Position numbers and translations under genes: made by a program
The notes under the pieces: generated by a model
What the model saw: only the letters and a program-made list of their open reading frames with translations
What the model was told of the DNA's origin: nothing
Databases searched by the model: none
Source of the DNA: Streptomyces rimosus
GTDB lineage: Bacteria > Actinomycetota > Actinomycetes > Streptomycetales > Streptomycetaceae
Assembly: GCF_008704655.1 (NCBI RefSeq)
Contig: NZ_CP023688.1
Span: 6,191,501 to 6,255,500, forward strand
Direction of reading: 5' to 3'
Length of the DNA stretch: 64,000 nt
Shown: positions 47,769-53,599 of the stretch, piece by piece
How the letters are laid out: the number at the start of each line of letters is the position of its first letter
Numbering within the stretch: the stretch's first letter is position 1

Positions 47769-48233
47769 TCAGCGGCCGGACGCGGCGCTGTAGGAGCTGT
47801 ACGCGACGAGGACGGCGAGCACGGAGGCGCTGGTCACGGTGGCGAGCAGTACCCACAGGGCGATACGGGCCTTCCGTGGCCGATTGCGGGCCTGGCGCGG
47901 GGAGCGCGCGTACTCCGGCATGCGGAGCGCCGGCGGCTCGGAGCTCATCGCGATGTCGGCCAGCAAGCGGCGGCAGGCGGCGGCCAGTTCGCCCGTGCCG
48001 CTGTCCAGCCGCATGACGGTCTCCGCCCGCGCGGGCGCGCTCGTACCGCCGTCCAGGATGCGGCCCGCCCGTATGAGCACCTCCCCACGGGTGCCGGTGA
48101 CGGACAGGCTGATCCACCGCTCGACGTGCTCGCCGCGTATGACCACACCGCCCGTGCGGTCGCGGTAGACCGTGTGCCGCTGCCACAGAACGGCCGCCAA
48201 CTGCCGTGCGGTGTCCGCCAGATGCGCGAGCAT
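47769..48233 (-). CDS. Hypothetical protein with C-terminal membrane helix
   Basis: A 154-residue protein of unknown function. Residues 1-110 are soluble (YRDRTGGVVIRGEHVERWISLSVTG), a basic stretch follows (RSPRQARNRPRKAR) and one helix near the C-terminus (IALWVLLATVTSASVLAVLVAY) anchors it tail-first. The ATG at 48233 has AGGGGGG 4 nt upstream. It is convergent with rodA (34 bp) and lies downstream of the encapsulin operon on the same strand but behind that operon's terminator. Confidence 0.55.
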   Translation of the reverse strand: MLAHLADTARQLAAVLWQRHTVYRDRTGGVVIRGEHVERWISLSVTGTRGEVLIRAGRILDGGTSAPARAETVMRLDSGTGELAAACRRLLADIAMSSEPPALRMPEYARSPRQARNRPRKARIALWVLLATVTSASVLAVLVAYSSYSAASGR

Positions 48234-48335
48234 CGTCCCCCCCTGCCGGATGTGCGCCAACCGAGGAAGGAACTGTACCGGGAGGCAGTGACAACGAAGG
48301 ACCGGGGCTGATGATCACCGCACCGAGCGGGCCGG

Positions 48336-48371
48336 GGAGCGCCCGCCCCGGTGGCTCGGGACGGGCGCTCC
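48336..48371 (-). terminator. Terminator of the encapsulin operon
   Basis: GGAGCGCCCG (48336-48345) pairs with CGGGCGCTCC (48362-48371). It lies 8 bp after the cysteine-desulfurase stop on the minus strand, so the operon probably ends here. Confidence 0.65.
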
Positions 48372-48378
48372 GGTCGGG

Positions 48379-50154
48379 TCACGGTGACTGCTGCAGCCGC
48401 AGCAGCGAAGCCACCAGCTGGTCAACCTCCTCGGGGGTGTTGTAGAGGGCCAGGGAGGCGCGTACGGCGCTGTCCAGGCCGTAGTGGGCCAGGGCGGGCT
48501 GGGCGCAGTGGTGGCCGGAGCGGACCGCGATGCCCTCCAGGTCCAGGGACTGCGCCACGGCCGTCGGGTCGTGGCCCGCGAGCGTGAACGCCAGCACCGC
48601 GATACGGTCCGGGGCGTCCCCCAGGACTTCGAGGCCGGGCACCATGGCCAGCGCCTGCCGCGCGTACGCCAGCAGGTCGGCCTCGTACTTGGCGATGGCC
48701 TCATGGTCGAAGGACGACAGCCAGTCGAGGGCGGCGAGCAGCCCGACCACGCCGGAGATATGGCCCGTACCGGCCTCGAAGCGGTGCGGCGCGGGCGCGA
48801 ACGTCGTCCGGTCGAAGGACACGGACTCGATCATGTTCCCGCCGCCCTGCCACGGCACCATGGACGCGAGCAGCTCGGGCTTGGCATACAGCGCGCCGAT
48901 GCCCGTGGGCGCGAACAGCTTGTGGCCGGAGAAGGCGTAGAAGTCGGCGTCCATGGCCTGTACGTCGACCGGGAAATGGGCCACCGCCTGCGCGCCGTCC
49001 ACCAGCACCTTGGCGCCGTACCGGTGGGCCAGCGCCGTCATCTCCGCCACCGGGGGAACGGTCCCCAGCACATTGGAGGCGTGGCTGACGGCCACCAGCC
49101 GGGTACGTGAGGACAGCAGGTCGGCGTAGGCGAACTGGTCGATCTGCCCGTCCGGCAGCAGCGGCACCGGCACCACCCGGGCATGCGTCTCGGCGGCCAG
49201 CTGCTGCCACGGAACGATGTCGGAGTGGTGCTCCAGCACGGGGACGAGGATGTCGTCACCCGGGCCGATGTTGGCCCGGCCCCAGGTCTCGGCGACCAGG
49301 TTGATCGCCTCGGTGGTGCCGCGGACGAAGACGATCTCCTCGGGGGACGGGGCGCCCAGGAAGTCCGCGACGGCGGCCCGGCCCGCCTCGTACAGGGCGG
49401 TGGCGTCGCGGGCCATGGTGTGGGCACCGCGGTGGATGTTGGAGTTGGCCGAACCGTAGAAGGCCGCCACCGCCTCGATCACCTGGCGCGGCTTCTGGGT
49501 GGTGGCCCCGTTGTCGAGCCACACGAGCGGCCGGCCGTTGACCAGCCGGTGCAGGATCGGGAAGTCCCGCCGCGCCATCTCAGGGGAGAAGGCGCCGCGT
49601 TGGGCTCCGGGGAGGTGTTGGGTGGTTGTGGGGTTGGCGGTGGGGACGGCCGCGGCGGGGGTCTGGAGTGGGCTGGACGGGGTGCCCGGGACCGTCTCCA
49701 TACCCGGGACCGTCTCCACGCCTGGGCCCGTCCCCATGCTCGGGGCTGCCTCCAAGCCCGGGACCGCCTGCATGCCCGGGACCGTTCCCACGCCCGGTAC
49801 GGCGCTCGTATCCGTCAGCGCGCTCGTGCCCGGGACGGGGCTCATGCCCGGCACCGCGCCCGCGTCCGGCACCGCACTCGTACCCGGCACCGCACTCGTA
49901 CCCGTCGCCGCGCTCGGGGCCGGCTGCATGCCCGGCAGGCCCGCCATGGCGGCGGCCGGGACGACGGTCGCCCCCGCGCCCGGAGCCGCGCCTGTGCCGG
50001 GGGCCGGTGCCGTGCTCGTGGCCGTGTCCGTACGGACGGCCGTGTTCGTGCCGGTGGCAGGGGCCGCTGCCGCATCCGCCGCGCCGGTCTTCGCCTCCTT
50101 GCCCAGGAGCGCGCTCAGCGGTGCCGCGAGCCCCGTGAACTCAGGAGTAGTCAT
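48379..50154 (-). CDS. SufS-type cysteine desulfurase with VPG-repeat loading tail (encapsulin cargo)
   Basis: A 591-residue PLP enzyme that would take sulfur from L-cysteine, leaving alanine. The catalytic domain (about 187-591) has the PLP lysine in SGHK (Lys412), HRGAH and DGAQAVAH, and the persulfide cysteine in RSGHHC (Cys550), as in SufS. Before it lies a low-complexity tail rich in Ala, Pro, Gly, Thr and Val, with elastin-like VPG units between residues 89 and 158 (VPGTS, VPGMS, VPGVGTVPGMQAVPGLE, VPGMETVPG). Such disordered N-terminal tails direct cysteine desulfurases into Family 2 encapsulins. The ATG at 50152-50154 lies inside the end of the shell gene (14-bp overlap, shifted frame), with only a weak ribosome site, indicating coupled translation. 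Confidence 0.9.
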   Translation of the reverse strand: MTTPEFTGLAAPLSALLGKEAKTGAADAAAAPATGTNTAVRTDTATSTAPAPGTGAAPGAGATVVPAAAMAGLPGMQPAPSAATGTSAVPGTSAVPDAGAVPGMSPVPGTSALTDTSAVPGVGTVPGMQAVPGLEAAPSMGTGPGVETVPGMETVPGTPSSPLQTPAAAVPTANPTTTQHLPGAQRGAFSPEMARRDFPILHRLVNGRPLVWLDNGATTQKPRQVIEAVAAFYGSANSNIHRGAHTMARDATALYEAGRAAVADFLGAPSPEEIVFVRGTTEAINLVAETWGRANIGPGDDILVPVLEHHSDIVPWQQLAAETHARVVPVPLLPDGQIDQFAYADLLSSRTRLVAVSHASNVLGTVPPVAEMTALAHRYGAKVLVDGAQAVAHFPVDVQAMDADFYAFSGHKLFAPTGIGALYAKPELLASMVPWQGGGNMIESVSFDRTTFAPAPHRFEAGTGHISGVVGLLAALDWLSSFDHEAIAKYEADLLAYARQALAMVPGLEVLGDAPDRIAVLAFTLAGHDPTAVAQSLDLEGIAVRSGHHCAQPALAHYGLDSAVRASLALYNTPEEVDQLVASLLRLQQSP

Positions 50155-51520
50155 GGTACTTGGACACCTCGACGTTCTGGAGGACGGCGAGGGCGTCCTC
50201 CACCAGGACGGCCGTGTTGAAGTACGCCGTGACCAGGTACGAGGTGATCGCCTTCTGGTCGACGCCCATGTTCCGTACGGACAGGCCCGGTTCCACCTCG
50301 TCCGGTACGGAGGCCGGGCGCAGGCCCACCACGCCCTGCTCCGCCTCGCCCACCCGCATCAGCAGGATCTCGGTCGTGCCCGCGCCGTTGATGTTCACCT
50401 TGTCGGACGGCAGCAGCGGCACGCCGCGCCAGGTCAGCAGCGGACTGCCGAACCGCGTGTCGGTCACCGGGGGCACACCCCGGCGGGTACATTCCCGGCC
50501 GAACGCGGCGATCGCCCGCGGGTGCGCGACGAAGTACCCGGGCTGCTTCCACACCTTGGCCAGCATCTCGTCCAGGTCGTCCGGCGTCGGGGCGCCGGTG
50601 CGCGGCTGCACCCGCATGCCCGGCGCGACCTGGTTGAACAGCCCGAAGTCCGGGTGGTTGAGCATCATCGACTCCTGGCGCTCGCGCAGCGCGTGCACGG
50701 TCAGGTTGCTCTGCGCCCGGGTCTGGTCGATCGGCTGGTTGTACAGGTCGGCGACGCGGGTGTGCACGCGCAGCACGGTCTGCGCGAGGCTCATGTGGTA
50801 CTCGCGCGGCGTGTCCTCGTACTCCACGTACGTGCCCGGCAGGTCCGGTTCGCCGACGTGCCCGGCGGCCAGGTCGACCGGCGCCTCGGCGCCCGGCGTC
50901 GGCATCTCGCCGGCGCAGTAGGACTCCAGCGTGGTGCGCAGCGACTCGTCGCGGTCGGCCAGTTCCGCCAGCTTGGCGCGGCTGATGCACAGCGCGACAC
51001 CGGGGGTCAGCGCGCGCACCTGGTACGGCTGCGACTCGCCCTTGGCCCAGGCCTCCAGGTCGAAGAACTGGCCGTCACCGACGACCTCCAGTAACGCGTC
51101 CTCGCCGTACCGCCCGGTCACCCGCTTCTCGGCGCGGCCGCGCACGAGCACCCACAGGCGGTCGGCGTTCTCGCCCTCGGAGCACAGCGTCTGCCCGGCG
51201 TCGAAGGTGATCTCGTCGCACGTCTCGGCCAGTTCGCGCAGCTGCCCCTCGTCGGCCTGCCGCAGGAACGGCAGCTCCCGCAGGTCCTCGGGGACGATGC
51301 GGTGGCGGTCGCCCTCGGAGAAGGTGCTGATCCGGTCGTCGCCCAGGATGAAGGTACGGCGGCGGTTGACGCGGTAGACGCCGGACTCGACGTCCACCCA
51401 CGGCAGGGCGCGCAGCAGGTAGCGCGGGGTGATGCCGCGCATCTGCGGCGTGGTCTTGGTGGTGGTGGCGAGCTGCCGTGCCGCATCGGGACCGAGGCTC
51501 AAACGGCCATTTGTGGTCAT
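50141..51520 (-). CDS. Family 2 encapsulin shell protein with cNMP-binding-like insert (2B type)
   Basis: A 459-residue HK97-fold protein expected to self-assemble into an icosahedral nanocompartment. Residues 1-80 (LSLGPDAARQLATTTKTTPQM, RYLLRALPWVDVESGVYRVNR) and 235-459 (REYHMSLAQTVLRVHTRVADLYN, GVPLLPSDKVNING, EPGLSVRNMGVDQKAITSYLVTAYFNTAVLVEDALAVL) are the shell parts. Between them, about 85-195, is a cyclic-nucleotide-binding-like domain (FDAGQTLCSEGENADRLWVLVRG...GQFFDLEAWAKGE), the mark of Family 2B. Its phosphate-binding cassette lacks the usual R-[ST]-A, so cAMP binding is doubtful. ATG at 51520 has GAGGAGG. The upstream 297 bp include its promoter. Confidence 0.92.
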   Translation of the reverse strand: MTTNGRLSLGPDAARQLATTTKTTPQMRGITPRYLLRALPWVDVESGVYRVNRRRTFILGDDRISTFSEGDRHRIVPEDLRELPFLRQADEGQLRELAETCDEITFDAGQTLCSEGENADRLWVLVRGRAEKRVTGRYGEDALLEVVGDGQFFDLEAWAKGESQPYQVRALTPGVALCISRAKLAELADRDESLRTTLESYCAGEMPTPGAEAPVDLAAGHVGEPDLPGTYVEYEDTPREYHMSLAQTVLRVHTRVADLYNQPIDQTRAQSNLTVHALRERQESMMLNHPDFGLFNQVAPGMRVQPRTGAPTPDDLDEMLAKVWKQPGYFVAHPRAIAAFGRECTRRGVPPVTDTRFGSPLLTWRGVPLLPSDKVNINGAGTTEILLMRVGEAEQGVVGLRPASVPDEVEPGLSVRNMGVDQKAITSYLVTAYFNTAVLVEDALAVLQNVEVSKYHDYS

Positions 51521-51805
51521 CACGACCTCCTCGTGAAAGGGCGCGCGGGCAGGCGGCGGCTCTCGTGGCCGCCGCGGTCCGCACGGTATGGAGGGGACCG
51601 ATCGTCCGAGCGGCAACTGCCGACGGCAAGACGGCGTATTTCCGCAACCGGCCGGAAAGGAGCTATCCGGCATTCGCAGGTGTTCGTGCAGAGATGAACT
51701 GTTTTTGCCGCGTGTGCCGTGTGGCCAGCCCGGAATCCGTCCGCCGGGCCGGACGGCGCCGCACGAACGTCCGATCGGGGACTGCCTCGGCGCCCCACAC
51801 GCGGC

Positions 51806-51820
51806 TAGATTCGATCCATG
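51806..51820 (+). promoter_or_regulatory. -10 box and probable leaderless start of the CYTH-CHAD gene
   Basis: TAGATT (51806-51811) ends 6 nt before the ATG at 51818; no Shine-Dalgarno is present. Same layout as valS and folC. Confidence 0.55.
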
Positions 51821-53599
51821 GCGGACACCGTGCGGGAAATCGAGCGGAAGTACGAAGCCGACGGCAGCACCGAACTGCCCGACCTGACCGGCGTCGCCGG
51901 GGTCGCGGCCCTCGCGGACCAGGGCACCGTCGTCCTGTCCGCCACCTACTACGACACCCCTGACCAGCGGCTCGCGGCCGACGGCATCACACTGCGGCGG
52001 CGCACCGGCGGCGGCGACGCGGGCTGGCACCTCAAGCTCCCGGTGGCCCCCGGCGTACGGGACGAGGTGCGGATGCCGCTGGCCGAGCGGCTGCCGCGCA
52101 AGCTCGCCGCCCTCGTACGCTCACGGGTGCGCGGCGCGCCCCTGACACCGGTCGCGCACCTGCGGACCCGGCGCACGCTGTGGGTGCTGGAGACCGCGGG
52201 CGGCGAACCGCTCGCGGAGGTCGCGGTGGACGACGTGGTGGCGCACCGCCTGGGCGACGGGGCGGTTCCGTACGGGACGGGCGAGGCGACGTGCGCAGCG
52301 GATGTGGCGTACGAGATCCACGGCGATGCGGGTGATGTGGCCCATGCGAACGGGGCGGCGGAGGCGGAGCGGCGGCCGGCGCAGCCGGACCGGGTGACCA
52401 CCGGGGTCCGCTGGCGCGAGATCGAGGTGGAGCTGGTGGGCGACGGCGACGCCGGGCTCCTGGACGCGGTGGACGAGATCTTCGCGGCCGCGGGAATCCG
52501 CCCGGCCGGTTCGGCGTCCAAGCTGGCCCGCGCGCTGGCCGAGACGGCGGACGCCGGTCGGGCGACGGACACCAAGACGATCAAGAAGACCGGCGGGACC
52601 GCCAAGAAGCCCACCAAGACCAAGGCCACGACCACCGAACAACAACCCAAGAAGCCCAAGGCACCCGAGCAATCCAAGAACGCCAAGAAATCCAAGTCCG
52701 CACCCCCGACCCCCCGCACCGCCGGCGACGCCGTCCTCGCGTACGTCCGCGAGCAGGTACGCACCCTCGTCGAACTGGACCCCGCCGTCCGCCGCGACCT
52801 GCCCGACTCGGTGCACCAGATGCGCGTCGCCACCCGCCGCCTGCGCAGCGCCTTCCGCTCGTACGGCACGGTGCTGGACCGCTCCGTGACCGACCCGATC
52901 GGTGACGAACTCAAGTGGCTGGCAGGGGAGTTGGGTGTTGACCGGGACCGCGAGGTGCTGGCGGCGCGGCTGCGCGCCGGGCTGGCGGACCTGCCGCGCG
53001 AGCTGCGGCTCGGACCGGTGGCCGCACGGCTGCGCCTGTGGTCGCAGCGCCGCCGCCTCGGCTCGCGGCAGACACTGCTCGCGGTCCTGGACGGCGCGCG
53101 GCACCTGGCGCTGCTGGAGAGCCTGCACGCGCTCCTCGCGGACCCGCCGCTGCGCCCGGCCGCGGCCCGTCCGCCGGCGCGCCCCATGGGCAAGGCCGTG
53201 CTCAAGGACTACCGGCGGCTCGCCGGGCGCGTGGAGGCCGCGCTGGCGGCGCCGGCCGGGCCGGAGCGCGACGAGGCGCTGCACAGCGCCCGCAAGGCGG
53301 CCAAGCGCGTGCGGTACGCGGCGGAGGCGGCCGGGCCGGCGCTGGGCGGCCCGGCGAAGAAGTTCGCCAAGCGCATGAAGCGGGTGCAGCAGTTGCTCGG
53401 CGACCACCAGGACAGCGTGCTGGCCCGTGAGGCGCTGCGCGATCTCGCCGTACAGGCGCACGGCGCGGGCGAGGGCGGCTTCAGCTTCGGGCTGCTGTAC
53501 GGACGGGAGGAAGCGGCGGCGGCCGCCCGGGAGCGCGAGCTGCCCGAGGTGTGGCGCAAGGCATCGAGGCCGGGGCTGCGCAGGAAGCTGGGCGGGTGA
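51818..53599 (+). CDS. CYTH and CHAD domain protein
   Basis: A 593-residue protein. The N-terminal CYTH domain (about 5-215) has the EIERKYE signature and the tunnel residues of triphosphate-tunnel enzymes (LRRRTGG, WHLKLP, EIEVELVG). A linker of about 60 residues is nearly all Lys, Thr, Pro and Ala (TKTIKKTGGTAKKPTKTKATT). The C-terminal CHAD domain (about 300-590) has its conserved histidines and basic helices (SVHQMRVATRRLRSAF, LHSARKAAKRVRYAAE). CHAD domains bind polyphosphate, so the protein probably handles or senses polyphosphate. It is divergent from the encapsulin operon across 297 bp. Confidence 0.85.
   Translation: MADTVREIERKYEADGSTELPDLTGVAGVAALADQGTVVLSATYYDTPDQRLAADGITLRRRTGGGDAGWHLKLPVAPGVRDEVRMPLAERLPRKLAALVRSRVRGAPLTPVAHLRTRRTLWVLETAGGEPLAEVAVDDVVAHRLGDGAVPYGTGEATCAADVAYEIHGDAGDVAHANGAAEAERRPAQPDRVTTGVRWREIEVELVGDGDAGLLDAVDEIFAAAGIRPAGSASKLARALAETADAGRATDTKTIKKTGGTAKKPTKTKATTTEQQPKKPKAPEQSKNAKKSKSAPPTPRTAGDAVLAYVREQVRTLVELDPAVRRDLPDSVHQMRVATRRLRSAFRSYGTVLDRSVTDPIGDELKWLAGELGVDRDREVLAARLRAGLADLPRELRLGPVAARLRLWSQRRRLGSRQTLLAVLDGARHLALLESLHALLADPPLRPAAARPPARPMGKAVLKDYRRLAGRVEAALAAPAGPERDEALHSARKAAKRVRYAAEAAGPALGGPAKKFAKRMKRVQQLLGDHQDSVLAREALRDLAVQAHGAGEGGFSFGLLYGREEAAAAARERELPEVWRKASRPGLRRKLGG

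Follow-up and report, generated by a model that had tools for sequence, protein, structure and literature searches.

A Family 2B encapsulin and cysteine desulfurase gene pair of Streptomyces rimosus, with pore and tail residues shared with Family 2A shells

In a stretch of 64,000 nucleotides from Streptomyces rimosus (contig NZ_CP023688.1, positions 6,191,501 to 6,255,500; the whole of it is called the window below), the gene for a Family 2B encapsulin shell overlaps that of a SufS-type cysteine desulfurase (CD). Cysteine desulfurases are tied mainly to Family 2A shells (PMC8049743, 2021). The first-pass annotation of the sequence saw in the pair a 2B-type shell with an enzyme best known as 2A cargo, and the question is whether a 2B shell has here taken over a 2A cargo or whether the pair is a system in its own right. 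We put at about 0.6 the probability that it is a complete single-shell Family 2B CD encapsulin, a movable two-gene set in Streptomyces that encloses its cargo and has a pore entry similar to that of SrpI, the 2A shell of Synechococcus elongatus.

The identities and coordinates given to both genes in the first-pass annotation held. The shell gene (50141–51520, minus strand) encodes 459 residues that scored 654 bits on NCBIfam encap_f2b (cut-off 400), 371 bits on PF19307 (residues 211–453) and 57 bits on PF00027 (residues 104–191). The protein thus possesses the HK97-type Family 2 shell domain and, given the PF00027 match, departs from the 2A type, which has no inserted domain resembling those that bind cyclic nucleotide monophosphates (cNMP). 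Its reading frame extends upstream to 52030 (50141–52030, minus strand); we placed the start at the ATG at 51520 because this lies 5 nt behind AGGAGG (51526–51531, minus strand), a likely ribosome-binding site, and because the resulting length matches that of relatives. The CD gene (48379–50154, minus strand) encodes a putative cargo of 591 residues, with 456 bits on PF00266, 520 bits on TIGR01979 (sufS, cut-off 475) and the motifs of the catalytic Lys and Cys, SGHK (K412) and GHHC (C550). Profile matches and sequence searches delimit its catalytic core (residues 189–591; 48382–49590, minus strand), in front of which stands an extended low-complexity N-terminal arm of 188 residues (49591–50154, minus strand), 80% of them P, A, G, T, V or S, with VPGM-like repeats. 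Across 47 relatives the cores are 75–99% identical to that of the window CD, GHHC is invariable, SGHK is found in 45 and replaced by SAHK in the other two, and arm length spans 15–252 residues, with a median of 51.

Both genes run in one direction, and the 14 bp that they share (ATGACTACTCCTGA, 50141–50154, minus strand) hold the shell stop and the CD start, so that translation of the shell would lead into that of the enzyme. This arrangement, an ATG in the CD frame 14 bp inside the shell gene, is kept in all 47 undamaged Streptomyces-type pairs (a count that omits loci L063, L066, L067 and L069). An identical overlap is annotated in a Kitasatospora 2B pair and an Azospirillum 2A pair, and a start at this position is available, in some cases among others, in the 2B pairs of S. 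clavuligerus and Methylobacterium and in the 2A loci L119–L122; the junction of the remaining 2A and 2B pairs differs from it. Furthermore, the two genes are inherited together. Among 247 Streptomyces genomes, the shell search gave 26 matches at 607–1044 bits (the next at 496) and the search with the CD core 26 matches at 596–892 bits (the next at 497). They fell in the same 26 genomes, side by side on one contig in 25 of them and on two contigs in G205, and no copy of either gene of this type was detected in the other 221. The association is not due to chance; the 26 genomes are not 26 independent cases, since some are close kin (the shells of G034 and G046 are 98% identical). More distant CDs adjoin shells in four further genomes, as 2A pairs in G009, G065, G176 and G215. 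Contig C1 of G065 (L113, L114) bears two CD pairs, one of 2A type near 0.65 Mb and a divergent one of 2B type near 11.32 Mb.

What distinguishes shells with a CD from other 2B shells is found at the five-fold pore and the C-terminus. Alignment with SrpI places the pore loop, CTRRGVPP, at residues 344–351 (50468–50491, minus strand); 16 residues (AIAAFGRECTRRGVPP) are identical to SrpI, and P350 aligns with SrpI P196, which together with G194 forms the conserved lining of the five-fold pore (PMC8049743). Proline occupies this position in all 72 CD shells (14 of 2A and 58 of 2B type) and in none of the 33 2B shells classed as non-CD, where it gives way to tyrosine (17), valine (13), leucine, histidine or alanine. 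The tail YHDY (residues 455–458; 50147–50158, minus strand) follows the same division: a YHxY-type tail is shared by the 72 CD shells of both subfamilies and is missing from the 33 others. 'Non-CD' here denotes shells with neighbours of another cargo type (L013, L014), without a CD match in the locus, or without a CD in the genome at E 1e-120 (19 loci, L148–L166). The residue counts omit the damaged pairs L063 and L066, L073 at a contig end, and L147, the same gene as L126; they include L038, whose contig ends before the CD, so that the enzyme itself was seen for 57 of the 58 2B-CD shells. In database proteins, taken as the best 120 of 8000 hits for each set and sorted by similarity rather than by known cargo, proline was found in 120/120 close relatives of the shell and 120/120 2A proteins, and tyrosine in 120/120 kinase-type relatives; position 458 was aromatic in all 240 of the former two sets and absent from the 120 kinase-type proteins. 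The strict tail pattern fitted 78 of these 120 2A proteins, and the eight misses that were printed differed at the third residue. As the extended C-terminus of SrpI is described near the A-domain at a raised vertex (PMC8049743), pore and tail may together make up a single gate. The pattern common to CD shells of both subfamilies appears from these alignments to be new here; neither it nor the docking-site pattern described below stands in the text of PMC8346489 that was consulted. A proline at the pore plus a YHxY-type tail would offer a simple sequence test for Family 2 shells with a CD.

The trees bear on where the enzyme came from. Against a wider set of free SufS-type proteins, 24 encapsulin-linked CDs and one from Calothrix form one clade (support 100/99), as did the 25 encapsulin-linked CDs of an earlier set (100/98); a clade of the 24 without the Calothrix protein was not rejected (p 0.504). 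For the Calothrix enzyme (L145, Calothrix sp. NIES-4101 plasmid2), the 7 kb that were read showed no shell gene. The 2A CDs make up a single subclade (98/94) with the 2B enzymes around it, the window CD among those outside; the tree of the earlier set leaves out the long-branch rows L007 and L008, one of which had been misplaced among Bacteroidales. The shell tree, built with the C-terminal tail cut off, has its root on 2A and unites the non-CD 2B shells in one nested clade (100/99). A larger group (95/93) joins them to the Streptomyces-type CD shells, and five more 2B-CD shells fall outside it, the deepest 2B branches being CD shells. The notion of a hybrid, in which a terpenoid-type 2B shell recruited its enzyme from a 2A system, draws on the better-known partnership of CDs with 2A shells and on the 646 bits that the window CD reaches on the 2A-cargo model NF041166, higher than its own sufS score and than the 552 bits of the housekeeping SufS of this genome on the same model. 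However, 646 bits lie below the curated cut-off of 800 and leave model positions 1–208 unmatched, while four CDs adjoining 2A shells scored 829–853; with the window CD outside the 2A subclade and the CD shells outside the nested clade, we consider a hybrid origin very improbable, and the idea of a 2B shell with a borrowed 2A cargo is not borne out. Instead, the single clade of encapsulin-linked CDs from 2A and 2B, together with the nesting of the non-CD 2B shells, suggests that the CD is an older cargo than the other Family 2 cargoes, and an old link between these enzymes and Family 2 shells is likely.

If the gate is shared with 2A, the docking of the cargo looks different. In 2A systems the N-terminal domain of the CD is required for loading and contains the recurring motifs LARLANEFFS (motif 1) and AASPYYFLDG (motif 2), and F262 and Y273 of SrpI lie near cargo density (PMC8049743). 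At the F262 position, N417 of the window shell (50270–50272, minus strand, aligned with SrpI), phenylalanine is present in 14/14 2A and 33/33 non-CD 2B shells and in only one of the 58 2B-CD shells, the others having asparagine (47), leucine (3), aspartate, alanine or proline (2 each) or tyrosine (1); the Y273 position in 2B-CD shells holds tyrosine (53) or histidine (5). The database sets agree, with asparagine or aspartate in 120/120 close relatives and phenylalanine in 120/120 kinase-type and 119/120 2A proteins. With our own patterns drawn up after the published logos, motif 1 was found in 13 of 14 2A arms (against an expectation of 0.03 of 14 once these arms are shuffled) and motif 2 in four; neither occurred in the 48 Streptomyces-type arms (the window and 47 relatives), one of which (L046) fitted a looser form of motif 1. 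No 5-mer beyond the first five residues was common to more than seven of the 48 arms, as a shared targeting peptide would be. The N-termini of the 47 relatives read MTTPD/E (40), MTIPD (6) or MIIPE (1), a constancy that the overlapping shell stop in part imposes. A pairing, row by row, of the loss of Phe417 with the loss of motif 1 was tried and is only partial: L129 (Y417) and L123 (L417) retain motif 1, whereas L125 and the 2A row L134 have F417 without it. With neither the 2A motifs nor the phenylalanine of the proposed shell contact retained, docking should differ from that of 2A, and most likely does; the loading tag would then be the short N-terminal tip (MTTPD/E) or part of the enzyme core.

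The same losses, and arms as short as 15 residues, would also suit a CD that is made together with the shell, yet remains unenclosed or loosely held and works outside it, the shell having some other content or storage role. Neither the confinement of both genes to the same 26 genomes, nor the constancy of the overlap, nor the retention of the pore residues as in 2A shells would be expected of such an arrangement, which we regard as unlikely. We therefore retain enclosure as the preferred reading, with several points that weigh against it and against the history proposed with it. Arms of just 15–16 residues occur in 5/47 relatives, and a 2A CD deprived of its N-terminal domain is not encapsulated (PMC8049743), so that packing may fail in these or take another route. 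That the tail lies near the five-fold axis follows the SrpI paper and not our own model, which is weak (predicted local distance difference test, pLDDT, under 50) at residues 1–10, 16–29, 43–59 and 209–243. The change at pore and tail, seen in so many sequences, is a single transition on the tree and counts as one event. Finally, a single clade of 2B-CD shells was not rejected (approximately unbiased test, p 0.458 with the earlier set and 0.235 with the later), nor was one of 2B CDs (p 0.098 and 0.074); as these alternatives stand, the early place of the CD rests on the best trees and on no significant test. We can thus offer only tentatively, as a scenario with less than an even chance, that the CD was the first Family 2 cargo, that a five-fold cysteine gate (Pro350 and the YHxY tail) was kept in the CD shells of 2A and 2B and lost once with the arrival of terpenoid and sugar-kinase cargo, and that docking was rebuilt in the Streptomyces 2B shells, where asparagine would replace the phenylalanine of the three-fold contact, the loading domain would have been dropped and a tip of as few as 15 residues, or the core, would direct packing. 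The direct question that follows is by what route a CD nearly devoid of an N-terminal arm is packed.

For the chemistry, we infer sulfur mobilisation or storage as the role of the pair, as was first proposed. The CD would sit inside a T=1 shell that cysteine would enter via the SrpI-like five-fold pore, and the enclosed enzyme would release alanine and leave sulfur as a protein-bound persulfide. Since no dedicated acceptor gene was detected, this sulfur would collect inside the shell or pass to small thiols. SufE, SufU, CysE and rhodanese were absent, as already remarked in the first-pass annotation, from the four neighbouring products scanned; in the whole genome SufE had no match and SufU a single one, next to the housekeeping SufS (7.196 Mb). 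Genes for serine acetyltransferase, cysK or rhodanese are present in the 2A loci of Synechococcus, Azospirillum, Variovorax and Aliarcobacter; none of the three was found within 4 kb at the Methylosinus 2A locus. The same architecture might instead serve selenocysteine lyase chemistry, or feed persulfide into a natural-product pathway, and not bulk sulfur storage. Some of the SufS-type PDB entries matched are named selenocysteine lyase, and the lack of SufE, with the sole SufU-type match placed at the housekeeping SufS, fits as well; a fixed pathway partner is not apparent, as none of the flanking gene clusters besides shell and CD recurred in over 10 of the 57 loci (the clusters are unannotated, and a selenium or thio-product gene could be present in some). 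We hold such a role to be rather improbable and keep to sulfur mobilisation or storage.

The inserted domain (residues about 79–200; 50921–51286, minus strand), delimited by the PF00027 match, pLDDT and Foldseek, had prompted the suggestion of control by a small ligand. This stretch is confidently modelled (ten-residue mean pLDDT 92–98), with Foldseek matches to domains of the CRP, PKG and CNG type; an earlier shell model from 22 alignment rows had a mean pLDDT of only 57.6. Comparison with known structures, which the first-pass annotation had recommended, returned the 2B fold with its inserted domain, and the structural alignment with 9BHU reaches residue 459. The placement of the domain in the E-loop follows PMC12407261, where the 2B insertion domain is described above the two-fold pores and as not binding cyclic nucleotides. 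Across 49 shells it varies more than the shell domain does (median pairwise identity 64% versus 83%), and the places of the usual phosphate-binding Gly-Glu and Arg-Ser/Thr residues, compared by eye with those of CRP, hold D154, L155, P165 (46/49) and Y166 (35/49), apparently replacements. Control by cyclic nucleotides is therefore doubtful and we consider it unlikely; control by another ligand is possible. The domain would probably sense a signal other than a cyclic nucleotide, gate a pore or be purely structural.

The surroundings of the pair indicate that it moves. Of 57 related loci that were fetched, 51 have a CD, two reach the contig edge right behind the shell and four, of 2B type, gave no CD match. 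The window neighbours (a radical S-adenosylmethionine enzyme gene and those for CYTH-CHAD, RodA, PBP2 and MreD) recur in three of them, L018, L019 and L026, and, besides shell and CD, no BLAST cluster was found in more than ten, although a small gene could be missed; flanking open reading frames were called by a home-made GC-frame rule and clustered by BLAST, a crude procedure in which several representatives look wrong-frame. As the pair stays together while its flanks vary, we take it for a movable two-gene set, about whose function the window neighbours tell little. Among 41 Streptomyces, 35 have their rodA and CYTH-CHAD matches within 0.9 kb of each other (distances calculated by hand); the gap is 4.1 kb in this genome and in G034, G029 has about 5.6 kb of other DNA there (L167, G029:C1:6185000–6194500), and three lack a CYTH-CHAD match. 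Because G029 carries different DNA at this junction, it may be a preferred place of insertion. The CYTH-CHAD gene (51818–53599, plus strand), divergent from the shell gene, is a common neighbour of rodA in Streptomyces without an encapsulin pair. A functional link between it and the shell, which the cNMP-like domain had suggested, was rejected on the strength of this 0.9 kb neighbourhood, the two being found together in only the three loci named. The same three loci alone share an open reading frame of 163 residues behind the CD (47769–48260, minus strand), which has a hydrophobic C-terminal stretch and no Pfam or NCBIfam match.

Behind the CD, a GC-rich hairpin of 15 pairs (48336–48371, minus strand; z −3.7) resembles a terminator without the T run. 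The first-pass annotation had the operon end in a terminator; the hairpin agrees with this, but the terminator scan found no T-run terminator there. A strong hairpin follows the CD in five of six relatives that were folded. Several copies elsewhere deserve mention. The pairs of Streptomyces endophytica (L063) and Streptomyces sp. MZ04 (L066) are damaged, the defects being frame breaks, a shell fragment and an internally gapped CD, and may be assembly errors or decay. Prevotella and another member of Bacteroidales (L067, L069) have 2B shell and CD pairs of 42–49% identity whose CD arms share the stretch NGFGIGIPET. Two records filed as 'Acinetobacter phage', CAKLQH020000001.1 and CAKLQF020000001.1 (329 and 379 kb), contain an mmpI-annotated gene matching the shell and a sufS gene; both may be bacterial DNA and not a phage genome.

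As a system, the pair belongs to a kind already described. A 2021 survey of 2B CD operons is attributed to Andreas and Giessen. It counts a CD in 1281 operons of Family 2A and in 199 of Family 2B, these last spread over nine phyla (PMC8346489), and NCBI already has a name for such 2B CD shells. The published operons are alike in their cNMP-domain shell and a SufS-type CD with a disordered N-terminus, and the window pair does not differ from them in kind. Judged by title or the start of the abstract, the literature searched, with most subscription papers outside it, yielded no bench study of a 2B CD system. For an Acinetobacter 2A system, elemental sulfur storage was reportedly described in a 2024 study, and PDB entry 8t6r is entitled 'family 2A cargo-loaded encapsulin shell'.

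Of the 2B structures, 9BHU (S. griseus, whose cargo we take to be a terpene synthase) and 9BJE/9BIX (S. lydicus) have the fold and inserted domain in common with the window shell; their sequence match to it ends at residue 452–454, before the YHDY tail, and in printed alignments 9BHU and 9BJE have tyrosine at the P350 position. In S. lydicus the shells belong to a locus of the xylulose-kinase type (PMC12407261). In addition to the CD pair, the S. rimosus genome holds two other 2B cargo types, one shell with a terpene synthase, a methyltransferase and a cytochrome P450 (L014, G000:C1:656000–675000) and a pair of shells close to genes for an FGGY kinase and a ROK regulator (L013, G000:C1:1150000–1168000), and is thus suited to asking whether cargo sorting between shells is specific. 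With the 2A system SrpI/CyD of Synechococcus elongatus (pANL; PDB 6X8M) the window pair shares the CD clade, the five-fold pore loop and the C-terminal tail, whereas SrpI lacks the inserted domain, CyD has its own loading motifs, LARLANEFFS and AASPYYFLDG, and cysK, epsC and a rhodanese gene adjoin. The worth of the locus lies in this comparison of pore and tail, docking and cargo history, which turns the order in which Family 2 acquired its cargoes into a directly testable question.

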